From assembly GCF_003946275.1 (NCBI RefSeq), contig NZ_RHNQ01000017.1, positions 1 to 41,505 of the forward strand: a stretch of DNA of 41,505 nucleotides, read 5' to 3'. Every line of letters begins with the position of its first letter. The first letter of the stretch is position 1. Source of the stretch: Loigolactobacillus backii. Lineage in GTDB: Bacteria; Bacillota; Bacilli; Lactobacillales; Lactobacillaceae. A program made the translations under genes and the position numbers. Of the stretch, positions 2,785 to 28,599 are shown one piece after another. The notes below the pieces were generated by a model. That model was given only the letters and a program-made list of their open reading frames with translations, was not told the DNA's origin and did no database searches.

Positions 2785-3573
2785 TTGAAGAAAATTGTTG
2801 TCGCTGGTTTTAAAGGGCGCATGGGCTCTACCGCAGCAAAGATGGTTTTAGATAATGAAGATTTTGACTTAGTTGGGGTTTATGATCCACGAGCAACGGA
2901 GACAAGTCTCGCTGGGGATGCCACTTTTAATAACGTTGACGTGCCAGTTTTTACTGAACGCGAAGCTATTCTTAGCGTTAAGCCCGAGATTTGGATTGAT
3001 TTCACCGTTCCCGCAGCTGCCGTTAAAAACACTAAGTTTGCCCTTGAACACGATATTTCACCAGTTGTGGGCACGACTGGCTTCACCGATGACGATGTTA
3101 AACAGTTACAGGCCATTGCCAAAAAGCGCCAAGTTGGTGGCCTAATCGCACCTAACTTTGGCTTAAGTGCCGTTTTAATGATGCAGTTTGCTAAGCAGGC
3201 AGCCAAATACTTCCCTGATGTTGAAATTATTGAAATGCACCACGATAATAAATTAGATGCCCCAAGTGGCACGGCTTTAAAGACGGCTGAAATGATGCAA
3301 AAAGAGCGGGGCGACAAGCCACAAGGTAATCCTGATGAAACTGAATCCTTACCTGGTGCGCGGGGTGCTAACTACCACGGCATGCGCATTCATAGTGTTC
3401 GCCTTCCTGGTTTAATTGCCCACCAACAGGTTCAGTTTGGCGCTGTCGGTGAAGGCTTGACGATTCGGCAGGATACCTATGATCGTGCTTCCTTCATGAC
3501 TGGCGTTGCGTTAGCTTGTCGTAAGGTAACCGACCACCACGAATTATTTGATGGATTAGAGTATCTACTATGA
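2785..3573 (+). CDS. dapB: 4-hydroxy-tetrahydrodipicolinate reductase
   Basis: 262 aa from the TTG at 2785. It catalyses the NAD(P)H-dependent step of the diaminopimelate/lysine pathway, feeding peptidoglycan cross-linking. The N-terminal Rossmann motif GFKGRMGS is at 8-15. The catalytic and substrate motif [15 protein letters not shown] has H152/H153 and K156, and GARG plus HSVRLPG lie in the C-terminal half. An in-frame TTG exists 21 nt upstream (2764), but AAGGGTGA (2772-2779) is spaced for the 2785 start and homologues begin MKKIVVAG. The gene overlaps cca by 4 nt (ATGA), so translation is coupled. No lysine riboswitch fits in the 118-nt leader. Confidence 0.93.
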
Positions 3574-4778
3574 AATTAAGCACCATTCCCGAAGAATTCA
3601 CCCAAGCAATACCGATTATTCAGGCAATTGAACAGGCCGGTTATGCGGCTTATTTCGTTGGCGGTAGTGTTCGTGACGCCATTTTAGGTAATAAAAAAAT
3701 TCACGATGTTGATATTGCCACCAGCGCCTACCCGGCCGAAGTGAAGGCTATTTTCCGGCGAACGATTGATACGGGCATTCAGCACGGCACGGTCACAGTG
3801 ATGGAAAAGGACAATGCCTATGAGGTGACAACCTTTCGCACGGAATCCACTTACCAGGATTTTCGCCGGCCTGATCACGTTACCTTTGTCCGTTCTTTAG
3901 ATGAAGATTTAAAACGCCGGGATTTCACGATTAACGCCTTAGCTTTGCGCCACGATGGCACGATCATTGATTTATTTGATGGCCTGACGGATTTGAAACA
4001 CGGTTTGATTCGGGCAGTCGGTATTCCTGAGGAGCGTTTTCATGAAGACGCCTTACGCATGATGCGCGCAGTGCGTTTTCAAAGTCAGTTAAATTTTGAG
4101 CTTGAACCGTTGACTGAAGCGGCAATCGCTAAAGAACATGACTTGTTGGCCAAGATTGCGGTGGAACGAATTCACGAAGAATTTGTCAAACTATTATTGG
4201 GCCAAAATCGGGCGGCTGGTTTGAAAACTTTTGTCGAAACTGACCTCTACCAAAAATGCCCCGGTTTTCGTTCCGCCGGCGCCAATCTATTACGAATTGC
4301 CGACTTACCGGATAGTCGTCTAGTCCGCGAAAAGAGTGTCTGGCTACTGATTGCCTATGAATTAGGTTTGGACACAACGGCAACGCGGCAGCTATTAAAG
4401 CAGTGGAAATCGTCTAACGAATTAGTGAACAACGTTGGCAACAACGTCACTTTGCTGGCAAAATTTTTGGCCGATCACATAACTAACTGGGATTTATATG
4501 CTGCTGGTCGCGATAATTTATTGTCCGTTAATGAAGTTGCCACTTTGCTGGGTGCCGGCCAGACTCCGGCAACGTTGACGACGGTCTATTCGTCCTTAGC
4601 AATTCACGACAAGCACGAATTAGCCGTTAACGGCGCCAATTTAATTCAACAGGCTGGGGTTAAACCAGGTCCGTTATTAGGCGATATCTTGGCCAAACTG
4701 GAACGGCAAGTGGTGGAAAACCAGTTAGCTAATGATAAAGCTAGCTTGTTGGCGGCGGCAAAAGAACTTCTAAACTAA
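3570..4778 (+). CDS. cca: CCA tRNA nucleotidyltransferase
   Basis: 402 aa, normal for the bacterial class II enzyme that adds or repairs the 3' CCA of tRNAs. The nucleotidyltransferase core is N-terminal: [13 protein letters not shown] (28-40), metal-binding DVD (46-48), the [10 protein letters not shown] motif near 112-121, then DLFDG and the R-rich helix [14 protein letters not shown]. The C-terminal half is the helical body/tail. The start ATG at 3570 overlaps the dapB stop. It is followed by a terminator at 4863-4894. Confidence 0.95.
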
Positions 4779-4862
4779 GGCGTGTTTGGAAAATAGCCTT
4801 AATTAGTGATTTTTCTAACCAATTTAGTTGAGTAAAGATGTTAAAATTGATTCTTTAGATGG

Positions 4863-4894
4863 TAAAACAGCAGATTGCGTTAACTGCTGTTTTA
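4863..4894 (+). terminator. Rho-independent terminator of dapB-cca
   Basis: TAAAACAGCAG (4863-4873) pairs with CTGCTGTTTTA (4884-4894) around a 10-nt loop, followed by T-rich sequence (TTTTTATC). Confidence 0.85.
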
Positions 4895-5014
4895 TTTTTA
4901 TCATTGGTTAATAAATGTTTTTTTGCAAATAGCTTACTGTGACTGGAATGTAGTTGAAGAGCGTGGTTACAGCGGTTAAATGCTATTACTGATAGCCGTT
5001 TAATTGGCGGAAAC

Positions 5015-5125
5015 GTGTTTGGAAAAGCAGGTTCCTGCGGTTGGCTACAACAGCCAAATCACCTTTTTCAAAGGTGATTCGTCTGTTTAGGCCAATCCTC
5101 AGAACCTGAACGCTTTTCCAAACAC
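5015..5125 (+). repeat. Structured repeat element E1 (111 nt, four helices)
   Basis: P1 is a perfect 14-bp terminal stem (5015-5028/5112-5125, GTGTTTGGAAAAGC and complement). P2 is AGGTTC/GAACCT (5029-5034/5102-5107). An internal loop CTGCGG / TCCTCA follows. P3 is TTGGCT/GGCCAA (5041-5046/5090-5095). P4 is a 10-bp hairpin AATCACCTTT/AAAGGTGATT (5057-5066/5070-5079) with loop TTC. It is followed by CTCTGTTTTTATA, terminator-like. The same fold with compensatory changes recurs at 9016-9126. The U-G pair closing P3, kept in all three copies, favours the plus strand as the RNA strand. Confidence 0.8.
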
Positions 5126-5138
5126 TCTGTTTTTATAG

Positions 5139-5144
5139 TATGAT
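5139..5144 (+). promoter_or_regulatory. Possible -10 element for the ABC-F/thyA/dfrA run
   Basis: TATGAT lies 30 nt before the ABC-F start. The expected -35 position falls inside the 3' arm of element E1 (TTCCAA), so the promoter would abut or include the repeat. No strong -35 is seen. Confidence 0.35.
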
Positions 5145-5174
5145 GGACTGTGAATATAGTTGGGGAGAAAATGT

Positions 5175-7058
5175 ATGCAAACTTTAGCAGTAGAAGATCT
5201 GACCAAAATTTATGGTGAAAAAACGCTGTTTGATCATATTTCGTTTATGATTAAGGAAGGCGACCGTATCGGTTTAATTGGAACTAACGGAACGGGGAAA
5301 ACCACTTTACTGAACGCAATTACTGGTTTGGACAGCTATGATGCGGGGTCTGTGGTGACGCCGAAACAGTACCGAATTAGTTATTTGCAACAGATACCAC
5401 AATTAAATGATGAGTTGTCAATCATGGCCGCTGTTTTTGCCGGGGATAACCCGATTTTTAAAACGATTCAAGAATACGAAGGTGCGCTGCAACAATTAGG
5501 GGAACAGGCCACTAATGAAAAAGTGCAGGACCGTTACACTAAGGCCGAACAGGCGATGAACCGTGATGACGCTTGGACGGCGGATACGCAAATTAAATCA
5601 ATTTTAAATCAGCTTAAGATTACCGATCTCAATCAGAAGATTGGGACGCTATCCGGTGGGCAAAAAAAGCGGGTCGGTTTGGCGCAGGTATTGATTGAGG
5701 CGCCGGATCTATTAATCCTTGACGAACCTACCAATCATTTGGACTTTGAGTCAATTGCCTGGTTGGAGTCTTATTTAAGTAGTTACAAGGGTGCTTTGTT
5801 GGTCGTAACCCATGATCGTTATTTTCTTGATCGGGTGACTAATCAGATTTATGAGCTTTCTTTTGGTAAACTGGAGGCTTACACCGGCAACTATGAAAGC
5901 TACTTAGGGCAAAAAGTGAAGCGGGATGCGACTGAAAGTGAACAAGCCGCTAAGCAGAAGAAACTTTATAAAAAAGAATTAGATTGGATGCACGCTGGCG
6001 CCAAGGCACGTTCTACGAAACAGCAGGCCCGCATTAATCGCTTTAATGACCTGAAGGAATCGGTCAGTGGTGGCACGAATAGCCAAGATGATGTTGATAT
6101 CAACCTGGGCCAGCAACGTTTGGGCAAAAAGGTGTTGCAACTTAAGGATGCAAGTCTGACTTTTCACGACCACGTGATTATGAAAAACTTCGACCTCATG
6201 ATTCAAGGTGGCGCCCGCTTGGGAATTACCGGTGAAAATGGTGCCGGTAAGACAACCTTCCTAAACGCTTTGACGGGCAAGTTACCTTTAACTAGTGGCA
6301 CCTTGATTCTCGGTGAAACGGTCAAAATTGGTTTTTATACGCAGATTACAGAACCGATGGATCCAGATAAACGCTTAATTACTTATTTGCAAGAAGTCGG
6401 TGAACAGGTCGTTAATAAAAATGGCGATACGGTGAGTGTGACGCAATTATTAGAACAGTTTCTTTTTCCACGATTTATGCACGGCACACTGATTCGCAAG
6501 CTATCTGGTGGTGAAAAACGCCGCCTGTATTTACTGAAAATTTTAATGACGCAACCGAACGTTTTATTACTCGATGAACCAACGAATAACCTTGATATTG
6601 GCACATTGACGGTGCTTGAAAATTATCTAAAAACCTTTAATGGTGCTGTTATCACAGTTTCACATGATCGTTATTTTCTTGATCACGTTGCGGATGAATT
6701 GTTGATCTTTGATGGCAGTGGTGAGATTGAACGTTTCACCGGCCAGCTATCGGATTACTTAAAAGAAGCCGCTAAACCAAAGCAAACTGCTCCTAAGGCG
6801 GCCCCAGCACAAAAAACACAAAGCACGGAACAGGCAAAAAAAGTTAAATTAACTTATAATGAAAAGAAAGAGTGGGCAACCATTGAAGCCACAATTGATG
6901 GACTTGAGCAACAACTCGAACAAGTTCAGAAAGAAATGGCCAACAATGGGGCCGATTATGGTAAGTTAGCGGAACAACAACAGTCAGTGGATGAGTTAAA
7001 TCAACAGATTGAAGAAAAAATGCAACGGTGGGATTATTTGAGCCAGTACGCAAACTAA
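5175..7058 (+). CDS. ABC-F family ATPase (YfmR/Uup-like)
   Basis: 627 aa with no membrane segments. It contains two ABC domains in tandem: Walker A GTNGTGKT (36-43) and GENGAGKT, signatures LSGGQKKR and LSGGEKRR, and Walker B LLILDEPTNHLDF and LLLDEPTNNLDI. A linker region, rich in K/A/E, joins the two ABC domains. The C-terminal about 90 residues are a lysine- and glutamine-rich coiled coil (Uup-type CTD). ABC-F proteins bind the ribosomal E site; the two-domain plus coiled-coil layout and length match YfmR/Uup, which helps ribosomes at difficult sequences. Antibiotic-resistance ABC-F types cannot be ruled out by eye. The start is ATG 5175 behind GGGGAG (5162-5167), not the upstream TTG 5160. 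It ends 9 nt before thyA. Confidence 0.88.
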   Translation: MQTLAVEDLTKIYGEKTLFDHISFMIKEGDRIGLIGTNGTGKTTLLNAITGLDSYDAGSVVTPKQYRISYLQQIPQLNDELSIMAAVFAGDNPIFKTIQEYEGALQQLGEQATNEKVQDRYTKAEQAMNRDDAWTADTQIKSILNQLKITDLNQKIGTLSGGQKKRVGLAQVLIEAPDLLILDEPTNHLDFESIAWLESYLSSYKGALLVVTHDRYFLDRVTNQIYELSFGKLEAYTGNYESYLGQKVKRDATESEQAAKQKKLYKKELDWMHAGAKARSTKQQARINRFNDLKESVSGGTNSQDDVDINLGQQRLGKKVLQLKDASLTFHDHVIMKNFDLMIQGGARLGITGENGAGKTTFLNALTGKLPLTSGTLILGETVKIGFYTQITEPMDPDKRLITYLQEVGEQVVNKNGDTVSVTQLLEQFLFPRFMHGTLIRKLSGGEKRRLYLLKILMTQPNVLLLDEPTNNLDIGTLTVLENYLKTFNGAVITVSHDRYFLDHVADELLIFDGSGEIERFTGQLSDYLKEAAKPKQTAPKAAPAQKTQSTEQAKKVKLTYNEKKEWATIEATIDGLEQQLEQVQKEMANNGADYGKLAEQQQSVDELNQQIEEKMQRWDYLSQYAN

Positions 7059-7067
7059 GGCGGTGCA

Positions 7068-8021
7068 ATGAACTTGGAAGAGGAATATTTAAACCTAGCT
7101 CGTAAAATTTTGAAGGATGGTCACTATAAGGACGATCGGACCAATACTGGGACTTACAGTATTTTTGGCTACCAAATGCGTTTTGATTTAAGCCAAGGAT
7201 TTCCTTTATTAACAACTAAAAAGGTGCCTTTCGGTCTCATTAAAAGTGAATTGCTCTGGTTCATTAAGGGCGACAGTAACATTCGTTATTTGTTACAGCA
7301 CAAGAATCATATTTGGGATGAATGGGCTTTTGAGCGTTACGTGAATAGCAAAGATTACCAGGGCCCTGATATGACTGATTTTGGCCACCGGCACCTGAGC
7401 GATCCTGAATTTAATCAGCAATATCAAGAACAGATGCATTTGTTTGACGACCGAATTTTAGCTGATGAGGCTTTTGCCAAACAGTACGGCGAGCTGGGTA
7501 ATATTTACGGTAAACAGTGGCGGGCTTGGAAAACGAGTCAGGGCACAACCATTGATCAACTTAAAAACGTTATTGATGCAATTAAGAAGACCCCGGATTC
7601 TCGGCGCCTGATCGTGTCGGCCTGGAATCCAGAAGATGTTCCCAATATGGCCTTGCCACCATGCCACACTATGTTTCAATTTTACGTTAACGATGGTAAA
7701 TTAAGTTGTCAGCTTTACCAACGTAGTGGCGATGTTTTCCTTGGGGTACCGTTTAACATTGCGAGTTACGCGTTGTTAACAGCCTTAATCGCTCACGAAA
7801 CTGGGCTTGAGGCTGGTGAATTTATTCACACGTTAGGCGACGCTCATATTTACAAAAACCACGTCAACCAAATTGAAGAGCAATTGCGGCGGGAAGTCCG
7901 ACCAGCACCAACGTTAGTCTTAAATCCTGACAAGCAAAGTATTTTCGACTTTGACGTCAGCGATATTAAGGTAACGAACTATGATCCGCAGCCGGCCATT
8001 AAAGCGCCAGTTGCGGTGTAA
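7068..8021 (+). CDS. thyA: Thymidylate synthase
   Basis: 317 aa. It makes dTMP from dUMP using methylene-tetrahydrofolate. The length matches the L. casei type (316 aa), which carries an insertion of about 50 residues in the small domain; here this is the stretch around 95-140. Catalytic Cys199 lies in [13 protein letters not shown]. The dUMP/phosphate motif [20 protein letters not shown] and the C-terminal folate-contact tail (KAPVAV) are present. It sits between the ABC-F gene and dfrA, 12 nt upstream of dfrA, so the enzyme that oxidises folate and the one that reduces it again are co-transcribed. Confidence 0.97.
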
Positions 8022-8033
8022 TGAGGTGAGCAA

Positions 8034-8528
8034 ATGTTAGCTTATATGTGGGCTGAAGATAAGAATCACTTGATTGGCGCAAAGGGTGCTTTGCCCTGGC
8101 ATTTACCTGCCGATTTGAAACATTTTAAGGATGTTACTATGGGTAAGCCAGTCATTATGGGGCGCAAAACTTTTGTCGGAATGGAACAGGCACTGCCTAA
8201 TCGACTTAATATTGTATTAACGCGAAAAAAAGAATTGACCGTCCCTGATGGCGTTATGGTGCTTCACAGTAAGCAGGCCGTTTTGGATTTTGCGGACCTA
8301 CACAACGATGAAGAAGTTATGATTATTGGCGGTGCTAAGATTTTCAGTTTATTCGCCGATGTTGTGCAGCGCCTGTACATTACGCGCATTGATGGTGCTT
8401 TTTCGGGCGATACGTACATGCCAGAGCTTAATTGGAAAGCTTTTGAAATGATCGACCATTTTGATGGCAAAGTTGATCAGGACAACAAGTACCCGTATAC
8501 GTTTGCGACTTACCAACGGAAGAGCTAA
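8034..8528 (+). CDS. dfrA: Dihydrofolate reductase
   Basis: 164 aa. It regenerates tetrahydrofolate from the dihydrofolate produced by ThyA. Motifs: LIGAKGALPWHLPADLKHF with catalytic D27, the NADPH-binding GRKTF and IIGGAKIF, and the C-terminal DGAFSGDTYMPEL segment. The Shine-Dalgarno GAGGTGAG (8022-8029) overlaps the end of thyA, giving tight coupling. It is followed by a terminator at 8602-8650. This is the normal chromosomal target of trimethoprim; the sequence gives no reason to suspect an acquired resistant form. Confidence 0.95.
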   Translation: MLAYMWAEDKNHLIGAKGALPWHLPADLKHFKDVTMGKPVIMGRKTFVGMEQALPNRLNIVLTRKKELTVPDGVMVLHSKQAVLDFADLHNDEEVMIIGGAKIFSLFADVVQRLYITRIDGAFSGDTYMPELNWKAFEMIDHFDGKVDQDNKYPYTFATYQRKS

Positions 8529-8601
8529 GGCTTGCCGCGAAGGTAGAATTAGTTTGGTTGATTGAAAAATAATGTAAAAGTTATTTAAAAAGTATGTTAA
8601 A

Positions 8602-8652
8602 AAACGCGAAATGGAGGCCGAAATTGGTCGTCTATTTCGCGTTTGTGTTTTT
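8602..8652 (+). terminator. Terminator of the ABC-F-thyA-dfrA run
   Basis: AAACGCGAAAT (8602-8612) pairs perfectly with ATTTCGCGTTT (8634-8644), loop 21 nt, followed by GTGTTTTTTGG. Confidence 0.8.
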
Positions 8653-8729
8653 TGGATTGTTTGTTGTAGGTGAAGTTATGTTTGAAAATTGGCTTTGATT
8701 GGATTTAGTCTGGCCAATTTGGCGGAAAC

Positions 8730-9002
8730 GTGTTTGAAAAAGCAGATTATTGCGTATAGCTACGCCGGTCGAACGATCCGCTGCGCGTCTCTTTTCGCCC
8801 GGCTGCCATGTTTCTTGCGGTGACTGAGACGAACTTAGTCGAGGAAACACAGTTATGGACTTTATAACTGTGCTCCCTAGTTTTCGCCACAAGAATGGTC
8901 AACGTCCGTAGCATCAAAGAATATTGGCGTTCTTCGCTAATATTCCTCCTACATTGCGGAGTAGTAGGCTATACTTCATAATCTGAACGCTTTATCAAAC
9001 AC
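8730..9002 (+). repeat. Structured repeat element E2 (273 nt, enlarged apical domain)
   Basis: It keeps the basal fold of E1/E3: P1 GTGTTTGAAAAAGC with GCTTTATCAAACAC (8730-8743/8989-9002, 13 of 14 pairs), P2 AGATTA/TAATCT (8744-8749/8979-8984), internal loop TTGCG/CTTCA, P3 TATAGCT/GGCTATA (8755-8761/8967-8973), and the GAAC bulge before P1. The P4 hairpin is replaced by about 200 nt with further hairpins, e.g. CACAGTTAT/ATAACTGTG, GAATATTGGCG/CGCTAATATTC and CCTAC/GTAGG. Confidence 0.7.
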
Positions 9003-9015
9003 TCTCGACTAAAAT

Positions 9016-9126
9016 GTGCCTAAAAAGGCAGCTTCCTGCGCTTAGCTACAATCGCCAAATAATTCATTGCATGAATTATTCGTCAATTTAGGCTAATGCT
9101 CAGAAGCTAGACGCCTTTTGAGGCAC
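9016..9126 (+). repeat. Structured repeat element E3 (111 nt, same fold as E1)
   Basis: Same length and helix order as E1: P1 GTGCCTAAAAAGGC/GCCTTTTGAGGCAC (9016-9029/9113-9126, one mismatch), P2 AGCTTC/GAAGCT, internal loop CTGCGC/TGCTCA, P3 TTAGCT/GGCTAA, P4 AATAATTCAT/ATGAATTATT. Helices differ from E1 by compensatory changes, while single strands (CTGCG, ACAA, GCCA, CGTC..TTTA, CTCA) are conserved. CTCTGCTTTTTATA follows, much as after E1. It probably also serves as terminator of the facing hlyIII gene. Confidence 0.8.
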
Positions 9127-9134
9127 TCTGCTTT

Positions 9135-9782
9135 TTATACAAACAACAAAATCGAAAAGTACATGAAGCCTGTTCCTAGTAGAACAAATAGGTGCCAGAT
9201 GACGTGGATGAATTTGATTCTGGGGAAGCTATAGAGGACTGCGCCTAGGGTGAAGGCCACTCCTCCGGCGACTAGTAGCCAGAAGCCAATTGGGCCTAGG
9301 TGCTGGTAAAGTGGTTTCATGGCGACTAGGCAGCCCCAGCCCATTAGCACGTATATGACGGTTGTTAAGTGATTTAATTTATTGCCGGCAATTGATTTAA
9401 AGATAACGCCAAATATCGCTAAGGTCCAAATCACGGCACATAAGACGTAACCCAGTGTATTGTGTAACGCGATTAGGCAATATGGCGTGTATGATCCGGC
9501 GATGAGTAAGTAGATACTGCAATGATCAAATACTTGGAAAACGTGCTTGGCCCGGGTAAAAATTAGACTATGAAATAAAGTCGAACTGAGATAAAGGATC
9601 ATGAGCGTAATGCCGTAAATTGTGTAAGCAATTGTTTGACCAACTGTGTTAGCTTTGATCAACAAAAAAATTAGGCCGACGACACTTAAAACAAAGCCAA
9701 TACCGTGAGTTACTGCATTTAGGACTTCATTGACGATGAGGTAGCGCCGAGAAAATGGTGACTGCTGAAAAGTACCATGCAT
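9135..9782 (-). CDS. Haemolysin III / PAQR family membrane protein
   Basis: 215 aa, seven hydrophobic segments, the standard size for the YqfA/HlyIII family. Conserved metal-site residues are visible: S/H in LYLSSTLFHSLIF, the FDHCSIYLLIAGSYTP segment in the middle, and the C-terminal HVIWHLFVLLG histidines. Family members are putative membrane hydrolases; the name haemolysin rests on an old heterologous phenotype and does not imply toxicity. The gene stands alone, transcribed towards the repeat pair E2-E3 and divergent from degV. Confidence 0.88.
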   Translation of the reverse strand: MHGTFQQSPFSRRYLIVNEVLNAVTHGIGFVLSVVGLIFLLIKANTVGQTIAYTIYGITLMILYLSSTLFHSLIFTRAKHVFQVFDHCSIYLLIAGSYTPYCLIALHNTLGYVLCAVIWTLAIFGVIFKSIAGNKLNHLTTVIYVLMGWGCLVAMKPLYQHLGPIGFWLLVAGGVAFTLGAVLYSFPRIKFIHVIWHLFVLLGTGFMYFSILLFV

Positions 9783-17112: not shown

Positions 17113-17670
17113 TTAATTCACGATACCTGAAATATGTTTTGCAAGTTCAGCGCTGACAAGCATTGCCATTTGTTCAGCACTTTCTTTCATTCCCGTTTGA
17201 CTCCAGGCTAGAAGGGTACTGAAAAAGCCACCAACTACAAAGCGAATATTATAATCCGTAACTTCGCCAGGACATTCTTCGACACAAACGATGGATTCAG
17301 AAAAAGAAACGACAAAACTGACCAATTTATCAAATAATATTCCAGTTAATCGTGATCGTTGGAGATTGAGAATGAATTGCAGGTGCGGCCGAAAACAAAC
17401 AAAAAAAGTGTAGCTTAGTTCGTAATTATTAATCTTGTCTTTTTTAAGCTGTGCCTGATAATCGGCCATAATATCGTTAAGGTGTTCGGAGATCAAATCT
17501 TCCAAAATATTGTAATGTCGGTAAAAGGCCATCCGCGAGACCCCCGCCTTACGGGTAACCGCTGAAATAGAAAGATCATTGAGATCCGTAAAAGTCATTA
17601 ACTGCATTAAAGCATTAAATAGACTTTCTTTTGTGAGTTGGGTTTGTTCACTATTGGATTGATTAGCCAT
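17113..17670 (-). CDS. TetR/AcrR family transcriptional regulator
   Basis: 185 aa. The N-terminal HTH domain shows LSISAVTRKAGVSRMAFYRHY (about 35-55; recognition helix SRMAFYRHY), the classical TetR signature. The C-terminal ligand/dimer domain is divergent and helical, with hydrophobic FVCFRPHLQFILN. The start is the ATG at 17670 with AAAGGAGG 9 nt upstream; the frame remains open 63 nt further but has no ribosome site. It is divergent from the SDR gene, with palindromes in the shared 141-nt gap, so it probably represses that gene and itself. The ligand is unknown. Confidence 0.9.
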   Translation of the reverse strand: MANQSNSEQTQLTKESLFNALMQLMTFTDLNDLSISAVTRKAGVSRMAFYRHYNILEDLISEHLNDIMADYQAQLKKDKINNYELSYTFFVCFRPHLQFILNLQRSRLTGILFDKLVSFVVSFSESIVCVEECPGEVTDYNIRFVVGGFFSTLLAWSQTGMKESAEQMAMLVSAELAKHISGIVN

Positions 17671-27059: not shown

Positions 27060-28475
27060 ATGCAAGAAATTGAAAAAACACCCAAACAAATTGTTCAAGC
27101 ATTAGATGAATACGTGATTGGCCAGAATGACGCTAAAAAGGCAATTGCAGTCGCATTACGTAATCGGTACCGGCGCATGCAGCTTTCTAAGGGGATGCAA
27201 GAAGAAATCACCCCGAAGAACATGTTAATGATCGGACCGACTGGGGTTGGTAAAACCGAAATTGCCCGGCGTTTGGCTAAGATTGTCTCGGCGCCATTCG
27301 TCAAAGTTGAGGCAACTAAGTTTACTGAAGTGGGCTACGTTGGCCGCGATGTTGAATCAATGGTTCGGGATTTACTCGACGTTGCGATTGAAATGGAAAA
27401 GGACGAACAGTACAAAACCGTTCGCAGTGAGGCCGCTCGCGAGGCCGATAAACATTTGGTCAAATTACTGGTTCCCGGAGTTAAAAAGGAACAGAACCAA
27501 ACGAATCAATTTCAAAATTTAATGAGTGCTTTTACGGCAATGCAAAATGGCCAAAATCCAACTACAACACCGGAAAATAACGAGGAAGTCACGGATGACG
27601 TTCGTGATCAACGCCTTTCCGTCAAGGAACAATTAGATCGCGGTTTGTTAGAAAACCGTGAAGTCACGATTGAAATGGATGATCCTAAGCAGGCCGTTGC
27701 GATGAATAATAATATGATGGGCCAAATGGGGATCGATTTATCCGAAACCTTAGGTGCATTAACACCAAAGCGGAAAATTAGTCGGACTGTAACCGTTAAA
27801 GAAGCCCGGGAAGTCTTTATTCGGGAAGAATCCGAAAAATTAGTGAATGCGGCGGATATTTATCACGCAGCGATTCAACGTGCGGAAAATACGGGCATTA
27901 TTTTTATTGATGAAATTGATAAAATTGCAGCAACTGGTCAAAAAAATAGTGGTGAAGTATCCCGTGAAGGTGTTCAGCGGGATATTCTGCCCATTGTTGA
28001 AGGTTCGGCGATTACGACTAAATACGGCACGATTAACACGGACCATGTCTTATTCATTGCTTCTGGGGCCTTTTCGGACAGCAAACCCAGCGATTTAATT
28101 GCTGAATTACAAGGTCGTTTTCCAATTCGGGTTGAGTTAGACGATTTATCAACTAAAGATTTCGTACGCATTTTGACGGAACCAAATAATGCCTTAATTA
28201 AGCAATACATGGCCCTAATTGGGACCGATAATATCCACACGACTTTTACCAAAGAAGCCATTGAGCGGATTGCTGCGATTGCCTATCAAGTTAATCACGA
28301 AACGGAAAATATTGGTGCCCGGCGTTTGCACACAATTTTAGAGAAATTACTTGAGGATATTTTATATGAAGGCCCAGATATGGAAATGGGCGAGATCACG
28401 ATTACAGAGCAATACGTCAACGATAAAATCGGTGATATTGTGGCGGATACTGATTTAAGCCGTTACATTTTGTAG
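27060..28475 (+). CDS. hslU: ATP-dependent protease ATPase subunit HslU (ClpY)
   Basis: 471 aa. The AAA+ unfoldase that feeds HslV. Walker A GPTGVGKTE, KVEATKFTEVGYVGRDVES pore region, Walker B IIFIDEIDKIA, arginine-rich sensor 2 GARRLHT, and the C-terminal DLSRYIL tail that docks into HslV. The I-domain between (about 110-240) is present in full. In B. subtilis the next gene is codY; here a structured repeat and an aldose epimerase follow instead, consistent with the lack of codY in lactobacilli. Confidence 0.96.
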   Translation: MQEIEKTPKQIVQALDEYVIGQNDAKKAIAVALRNRYRRMQLSKGMQEEITPKNMLMIGPTGVGKTEIARRLAKIVSAPFVKVEATKFTEVGYVGRDVESMVRDLLDVAIEMEKDEQYKTVRSEAAREADKHLVKLLVPGVKKEQNQTNQFQNLMSAFTAMQNGQNPTTTPENNEEVTDDVRDQRLSVKEQLDRGLLENREVTIEMDDPKQAVAMNNNMMGQMGIDLSETLGALTPKRKISRTVTVKEAREVFIREESEKLVNAADIYHAAIQRAENTGIIFIDEIDKIAATGQKNSGEVSREGVQRDILPIVEGSAITTKYGTINTDHVLFIASGAFSDSKPSDLIAELQGRFPIRVELDDLSTKDFVRILTEPNNALIKQYMALIGTDNIHTTFTKEAIERIAAIAYQVNHETENIGARRLHTILEKLLEDILYEGPDMEMGEITITEQYVNDKIGDIVADTDLSRYIL

Positions 28476-28480
28476 CAGGG

Positions 28481-28599
28481 AGTGTTTGGAAAAGTGGTTA
28501 GATTCTACTTCGCAATTAGGAATATTACTGGCCTCGCTGACGCTGGCGACTCAATTCGTTTCGGTCACCGCAGGAAGCTGCTTTTTCGAACACGTTTCC
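28481..28599 (-). repeat. Structured repeat element E4 (inverted, rearranged copy)
   Basis: Read on the minus strand it starts with the family 5' end GGAAACGTGTTCGAAAAAGC followed by AGCTTCCTGCGG, and finishes with CTTTTCCAAACACTC. Its middle carries TAATATTCCT..ATTGCGAAGTAG, matching the E2 segment TAATATTCCT..ATTGCGGAGTAG. P2 and P3 do not re-form. The terminal stem is complete only on the plus strand, with three G-U pairs. It starts 6 nt after the hslU stop. Confidence 0.6.

Follow-up and report, generated by a model that had tools for sequence, protein, structure and literature searches.

A dispersed, fold-conserved hairpin repeat of Lactobacillaceae often lying behind stop codons in fixed orientation

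Introduction

Short dispersed repeats that form hairpins have been described in many bacterial genomes. Integron attC sites are variable hairpins with conserved unpaired bases that lie behind genes, are alike within a species and carry the core sites GTTRRRY and RYYYAAC. The pneumococcal RUP is linked to an IS630-type element. REPs and BIMEs are high-copy, palindromic and intergenic sequences occurring singly or in clusters; the REP itself is a palindrome of 20-40 bp, which in the GTAG type carries a GTAG tag at one end. PMC12306157 reports that Escherichia coli REPs no more than 15 nt from a stop codon stall ribosomes, and gives the number of such stop-close REPs as 260 of 496 in a study cited there and 446 of 4,072 in its own data. 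CGTC-tagged REPs, as described in PMC3733652, are palindromic repeats without a dedicated transposase, and the word start 'lactobacill' is absent from the main text of that paper. Pneumococcal BOX, RUP and SPRITE repeats cluster and insert into one another, according to PMC10969869.

In this study, we analyzed a repeat found in a window (the whole stretch of DNA examined, 41,505 nt) from Loigolactobacillus backii. It resembles REPs and BIMEs in being high-copy (about 100 places), palindromic and intergenic, with single and clustered copies. However, it is 111-118 nt long with four helices, its sequence varies while the fold stays, and it ends in AAACGTG and CACTCT rather than carrying a GTAG tag at one end; it is also unlike the CGTC-tagged REPs, which are short, with the CGTC tag at one end. 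BOX, RUP and SPRITE, set beside the repeat by description only, are likewise intergenic and nested and occur in another family of the same order.

Materials and methods

Alignment A1 consisted of 36 rows, namely E3 and 35 of 42 picked rows; L036 (very short), L047, L009, L011, one of the two L017 rows, E4 and one row of a second repeat, F2, were left out. The covariance model R1 was built from A1. For alignment A2, 150 of 199 matches were aligned and 114 rows (113 distinct) were kept, mirror-strand hits, fragments and long forms having been removed. Since shuffles ignore relatedness, covariation was judged against a phylogeny-preserving null in the style of R-scape, implemented in our own script (FastTree, Fitch reconstruction, changes re-placed on branches), with a G-test plus average-product correction as the statistic, 200 and 150 replicates, and E < 0.05 as the threshold.

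Results

Anatomy of the repeat

The features discussed here are collected in Table 1. The original prediction had singled out a 111-nt intergenic element (the core of E1) with a second copy (E3). Both are indeed 111 nt long and align without gaps (5015-5125 against 9016-9126), with 78 of the 111 bases identical. E1 has a minimum-free-energy fold of 46 pairs (-59.6 kcal/mol; z = -10.5 relative to 200 dinucleotide shuffles). Of these pairs, 13 were changed on both sides yet still paired in E3, 2 were broken and 31 were the same, in line with an earlier hand count of 11 compensatory pairs and one mismatch. The predicted element is thus a real copy, but the full element proved larger and more modular.

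Table 1. Positions of the repeat, its helices, nested parts and neighbours (window coordinates unless a locus is named)
Feature	Location	Strand	Description and basis
E1	5011..5128	+	short form, AAACGTG-hairpin-CACTCT; R1 132.7 bits; fold, alignment, neighbours
P1 5' arm, terminal helix	5015..5028	+	pairs with 5112-5125; alignment columns 5-18 with 104-118
P2 5' arm	5029..5034	+	pairs with 5102-5107; conserved internal loop CTGC / TCA next
P3 5' arm	5039..5053	+	conserved TAGCTAC-like segment; pairs with 5083-5098
P4 apical hairpin	5057..5079	+	highly variable, strongly covarying; alignment, fold
P3 3' arm	5083..5098	+	conserved TAGGCTA-like segment; alignment
P2 3' arm	5102..5107	+	alignment
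P1 3' arm	5112..5125	+	alignment
E2	8726..9005	+	long form of the E1/E3 repeat with nested module; partial R1 match, 26.8 bits at 8726-8835
Module M in E2	8805..8965	+	nested module, GCCATG...GAGTAGT; by eye; equivalent unit in L025 without M
E3	9012..9129	+	short form; R1 123.8 bits; CACTCT end 6 nt from HlyIII-like stop
HlyIII-like gene	9135-9782	-	adjoins E3
AAA+ ATPase gene	27060-28475		adjoins E4
E4	28479..28597	-	divergent copy; R1 38.3 bits; AGAGTG end 4 nt past AAA+ ATPase stop
F2	L002 862-981	minus	AACGTGCGCCAAAAG ... CACTCC; also L023, L024, and L232 of G007 near 17300
IS110 at repeat edges in G071	L263 (near 5150), L194 (near 1680), L261		main-hairpin right edge once, terminator-like hairpin edge twice

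In the orientation of E1, the unit reads AAACGTG, P1, P2, the internal loop CTGC / TCA, P3 (with TAGCTAC and TAGGCTA), the variable P4 and CACTCT, the whole measuring 111-118 nt from AAACGTG to CACTCT. The arms of P1 vary among copies and species yet pair, e.g., GGTTGAACAAGC with GCTTGTTCAACC in G001. The internal loop and the unpaired AAACGTG and CACTCT ends are retained in most copies across genera. The tail CTCTG(C)TTTTTATA that had been noted behind both copies follows E1 and E3 but is not general, L006, L009, L015 and L049 having no T-run there; a T-rich tail is found downstream of many copies in G071, where a linker and a terminator-like hairpin (H0) also stand in front of the unit, H0 being alike in many copies.

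Same-orientation tandem arrays of units were observed in L033, L034 and L017, and the long forms are units with nested modules M and N. Judged by eye, module M sits mostly at TT^AGC or CT^AGGC within P3, and module N (GCGACTCGGACTTCGG...TTAGT) sits at T^AA; from their boundaries, both would have entered at T^A, repeating no more than one base. M and N recur at particular places in the main hairpin, and N also within M (window 8805-8965; L014, L022, L023, L030; L111 7680-8060). Also by eye, a second repeat, F2 (AACGTG ... CACTCC), shares the plan of the main repeat (F1), and F1 copies lie inside F2.

E1 lies between a cca-like gene and an ABC-F-like gene. A promoter-like pair was seen at window positions 5115-5144, with its -35 hexamer in the last E1 arm, its -10 just downstream and the ABC-F gene next; promoter-like matches around E1 numbered 3 against 1.0 (sd 1.1) in shuffles, i.e., little above the shuffled level.

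Copy number and distribution

A blastn search with E1 (E <= 10) returned 101 matches in the window's own genome, with pieces and both strands counted. R1 gave 110 matches in the same 2.57-Mb genome, corresponding to 100 distinct places on 33 contigs, of which 63 were full-length; these numbers are a lower bound, as 150 of the 1,592 first-look candidates were scored. The copies occupy both chromosome strands beside many different genes, and they are fairly alike within one genome and different between species. Across the family, 177 of 397 Lactobacillaceae genomes in 20 of 40 genera had R1 matches (E <= 1e-4; at most nine candidates scored per genome). The covariance-model search proposed originally thus found further copies both genome-wide and among relatives. 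In a wider set, 25 of 80 genomes (own included) and 17 of 59 genera had matches, a single weak one (G046, E = 9.5e-4) lying outside the family, and in a sample of the class 1 of 299 genomes, namely the window's own, was positive.

Among 80 thyA loci searched at E <= 0.001, matches were found in L. iwatensis, Latilactobacillus graminis, Lentilactobacillus fungorum and Lacticaseibacillus zeae; the L. bifermentans thyA locus had none at this cut-off. L. graminis has two copies between the ABC-F gene and thyA, the first of them at the ABC-F stop codon. A weak candidate match (33.6 bits) was seen outside Lactobacillaceae at the thyA locus of Enterococcus durans (L117 4521-4638). The plasmid search yielded one record with the repeat, from Latilactobacillus curvatus, and the phage search found no copy.

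The family, which the original prediction could not name, had no counterpart in Rfam 15 (0 matches across the window), and permissive Rfam searches, run on 4700-9300 and on seven other loci, matched none of the elements there. One sub-threshold Rfam match was seen just upstream of the element in L089. No description of the repeat was recognised in the open literature (subscription papers being outside the scope), and we regard the novelty of the family as provisional.

Covariation of the proposed helices

In A1, 30 of the 38 structure pairs had changes on both sides and 96.0% of the cells were paired; the covariation score was 0.474, against 0.155 when shuffled and at most 0.095 with slid partners. 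Under the phylogeny-preserving null, 7 of the 38 structure pairs passed in A1, which MAFFT had aligned without structure, and no other of the 6,555 column pairs did so. All 7 were in P2-P4 and none in P1, whose pairing in A1 is partly selected, the source rows having been chosen for complementary P1 arms. With the same type of null, 24 of the 38 structure pairs and 25 of 6,555 column pairs overall passed among the 113 distinct model-aligned copies of A2, an alignment that leans to its model's structure. Both alignments therefore exceed phylogenetic expectation, as the original prediction would have it: the covariation is specific to the proposed pairs and goes beyond phylogeny. The repeat is a structured, modular and dispersed family whose fold persists through changes in much of the helix sequence.

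Position at stop codons

Positions were analyzed in 41 stretches of the own and the sister genome, using 106 matches hand-picked from 231, with mirror-strand duplicates and most fragments and weak hits omitted. Placement was largely extragenic, 2 of the 106 listed hits lying inside called ORFs; these and 9 hits without a neighbour ORF on one side were set aside, leaving 95 elements in 74 gaps between called ORFs. First, the CACTCT end faced a stop codon in 61 elements and lay within -12 to +20 nt of it in 43 of them, and 3 of the 54 left ends facing a stop lay within -12 to +8 nt. Second, counted by gap, a CACTCT (AGAGTG) end positioned between -12 and +8 nt of the stop was seen in 40 gaps, out of 51 in which this end faces a stop and 74 that bear an element; uniform placement would give about 2.3 (100,000 simulations, maximum 10). 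Third, at 64 hand-listed loci of other genomes, where an ORF end was near the right end in 52 and near the left end in 36, 33 right versus 5 left ends lay within -12 to +20 nt of a stop (ORFs of at least 80 codons). Finally, in an annotated L. curvatus record (L260) an array of three tandem copies runs to 3118, and the CDS that faces it terminates at 3124. Thus, many copies of the repeat are anchored at stop codons in a fixed orientation.

Within the window, E3 obeys this rule at 6 nt from the stop of the HlyIII-like gene, as does E4 at 4 nt past the AAA+ gene, and the HlyIII-like protein aligns with its relatives through the C-terminus. E1 breaks the rule, its right end facing the ABC-F-like start at 32 nt from the called start codon. 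The right end pointed towards a gene start in 34 of the 95 elements, at 12-43 nt from the called start in 10 of the 34. At the junction, the stop codon was TAG in 10 cases, TAA in 10 and TGA in 3; with baseline shares of 30, 55 and 15%, this shows no clear preference and lends no support to a TA duplication at the stop codon.

Turnover of copies between sister species

The closest named relative found was Loigolactobacillus iwatensis, with a thymidylate synthase 98% identical and DNA about 95% identical over aligned blocks. At its E1 site, an extra unit and a long nested form replace the short form, and the outer and inner pieces are shared; at several other sites shared between the own genome and G007, interiors were swapped and modules differed. 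For 27 of the 38 own clusters, the stretches compared contained no syntenic interval, and all 11 comparable sites hold an element in the sister species, nine by motif count and the two motif-empty ones by model hits (L235:14081 and L232:14624). These sites are therefore older than the species split, while their interiors turn over; movement of a whole unit in recent times was not caught among these 11 sites. This sharing slightly lowers the odds of the REP-like reading favored below and of its bolder version, and raises those of a 3'-UTR RNA. Copies nest, form tandem arrays and are rebuilt at the same sites between sister species.

G007 has a 294-nt compound, F2 with an F1 copy nested in it, that the own genome lacks. 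The dfr-hlyIII gap measures 606 nt here versus about 4-140 nt between aligned gene ends in several genera (e.g., L140, L160, L132), and has grown relative to them, which speaks for gain. TA, the target-site duplication expected of MITEs of IS630/Tc1 type, stood by eye at some tandem junctions, but many G071 copies lacked it at their right flank, and no clean target-site duplication was established. About 890 nt of the own contig C79 (L254 17220-18113) are missing in G007; by eye, they seem to encode a small RelE/HigB-like protein and an XRE-type regulator, a toxin-antitoxin-like pair.

Search for a helper enzyme

None of the candidate enzymes fits consistently, so that the usual REP and MITE explanations are left without a consistent enzyme. 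The Y1/HUH family (PF01797), to which the RAYT of GTAG-type REPs belongs, was present in 6 and missing from 11 of the 17 genomes with at least 17 R1 matches (G000, G001, G002, G004, G005, G007, G009, G071 and three more lacked it), and was rejected as the helper; of the element-positive genomes, 10 of 25 carried it, as did 19 of the 55 negative ones. DDE_3 (PF13358) was over the cut-off in 0 of 24 genomes, with one match below it in G022, which rejects an IS630 helper and distinguishes the repeat from RUP, ERIC-like and other MITEs of IS630/Tc1 type. Reverse transcriptase (RVT_1, PF00078) was over the cut-off in 5 of 24 genomes, four of them element-rich (G000, G004, G005, G007), the window's own included, but it was missing from 10 of 14 element-rich genomes and was likewise rejected, which also speaks against a retroelement or group II-derived repeat. 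Integron integrase (TIGR02249) was also discarded, being over the cut-off in 0 of 24 genomes, although all 24 and all 14 control genomes matched below it; since 0 of the 14 controls exceeded the cut-off either, this search had no positive control.

IS110 showed a different distribution: it exceeded the cut-off in 5 of the 14 element-rich genomes and in none of the 10 others, and it is a possible partner of the repeat. In G071, three of the four over-cut-off IS110-family copies were inserted in the same orientation at the edge of the composite repeat, which we take to recall IS621 at REPs. In about 0.8 Mb searched, pairs of ends spanning up to 4 kb yielded no coding (autonomous) copy; two end pairs of 3,593 nt had only repeat parts in common and enclosed unrelated genes. 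A lost, different or general host enzyme is a possible helper.

Strand evidence and alternative readings

With one mostly-G·U pair excluded, the plus strand had 67 G·U versus 111 A·C among 4,164 cells. An RNA made from this strand should show G·U far in excess of A·C, and the greater frequency of A·C disfavors it. Counted by genome and pair, the numbers were 46 G·U versus 71 A·C, which weakly favors the minus strand. A tRNA comparison (20 G·U versus 0 A·C) involved only 5 sequences, some of them doubtful, and was left aside. What remains is a minus-strand RNA or a DNA hairpin. Of the two possibilities raised by the original prediction, the hairpin element under selection for its fold is supported by covariation, copies in relatives and the lack of an Rfam match, whereas the structured RNA, if read from the strand examined, is not supported, given the A·C excess, copies on both strands and the many different neighbour genes.

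A minus-strand RNA would be a cis-acting 3'-UTR structure (AGAGUG first), co-transcribed with the ending gene and folded in the service of the host through 3'-end protection, termination or ribosome recycling. The fixed orientation and tight spacing to stop codons, the 11 of 11 comparable sites kept in the sister species and the first L. graminis copy at the ABC-F stop codon are all consistent with it, as is the slightly better minus-strand fold of E1 (-62.7 versus -59.6 kcal/mol). The inner helices P3 and P4 had 28 G·U versus 78 A·C, the latter being U·G on the minus strand. However, 30 of these A·C cells came from two pairs (17 and 13), so that a few pairs supply much of the excess, and the outer helices P1 and P2 were balanced (39 G·U and 33 A·C), showing no strand bias. 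In many species these genes have no element beside them, so that it is not needed; the right end points towards a gene start in about a third of the copies analyzed, and nesting and tandem arrangement do not resemble a regulatory RNA. Taken together, we consider this reading somewhat unlikely.

Compensatory changes might also arise without selection on the fold, as a mutational by-product of template switching in a quasi-palindrome that homogenises its arms. At L011 1503-1620 and in L003, one hairpin arm has been converted across a normally imperfect stretch so as to approach the exact complement of its partner, a likely footprint of template switching, which hence contributes to the compensatory pattern. 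Moreover, A·C and G·U were about equally rare in the outer helices, as if either mismatch were repaired. But a pure process of this kind would erase the internal loop, and the loop (CTGC / TCA) and the AAACGTG and CACTCT ends persist; the conserved loop argues against template switching as the whole story. Dispersal and stop-codon anchoring would also be left unexplained, and as a full account arm homogenisation seems quite improbable.

An attC-like recombination site, i.e., a variable hairpin with conserved extrahelical bases in fixed orientation behind genes that a tyrosine recombinase would use, shares several properties with the repeat: the fold is kept while the sequence varies, copies are more alike within a genome than between species, tandem arrays occur and copies lie directly behind stop codons. 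Nevertheless, CACGTTTMC and AGAGTG do not by eye fit the attC core sites, copies are dispersed over the chromosome, comparable sites lie by the same genes in sister species rather than in shuffled cassettes, and the integrase search described above was negative within its limits, which makes this possibility very remote. A free-standing small RNA or riboswitch-like RNA from the plus strand, for which the very stable fold and the covariation might speak, is hardly credible. It is disfavored because that strand shows no excess of G·U, because the roughly 100 copies adjoin many different genes, and by the negative Rfam searches and promoter-like matches near E1 little above shuffles.

Discussion

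The reading that we favor, with about even confidence, is that of a non-autonomous DNA repeat, dispersed in Lactobacillaceae and able to form hairpins, which is REP- or MITE-like and perhaps acts on mRNA 3' ends. A putative recombinase that recognises the single strand in its folded state may have spread the repeat. Either selection or the choice of target would leave it just behind stop codons, where it might be tolerated or beneficial. When transcribed, the hairpin would become the first structure of the 3' UTR behind the stop codon, and such a structure could affect termination, mRNA decay or ribosome release if the stop-proximal E. coli REPs are taken as a model. The effect on expression, argued from that analogy, appears to be the weakest step.

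A bolder version is that these are mobile stop-codon hairpins found throughout Lactobacillaceae: folded DNA recognised by its shape and not its sequence, handled by a type of recombinase for which no link to REP-like repeats has yet been made, entering right behind stop codons in a fixed orientation and acting on ribosome release or mRNA 3' ends. We consider this combination clearly unlikely.

With regard to known systems, we did not file the repeat as a REP, an IS630-type MITE, an attC site or an Rfam family, because a defining feature of each was looked for and not found. We know of no stop-codon anchoring for BOX, RUP or SPRITE. By analogy, the dispersed repeat favored here would work most like a REP.

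These results point to a high-copy structured repeat in lactobacilli that was found neither in Rfam nor in the open literature. Because many copies abut stop codons, gene models, RNA-seq 3' ends, assemblies and comparative genomics in these bacteria may be affected. With no consistent REP or MITE helper and with rebuilding of copies between sister species, the way in which palindromic repeats lacking a transposase spread becomes, in harmless laboratory strains, a testable question.
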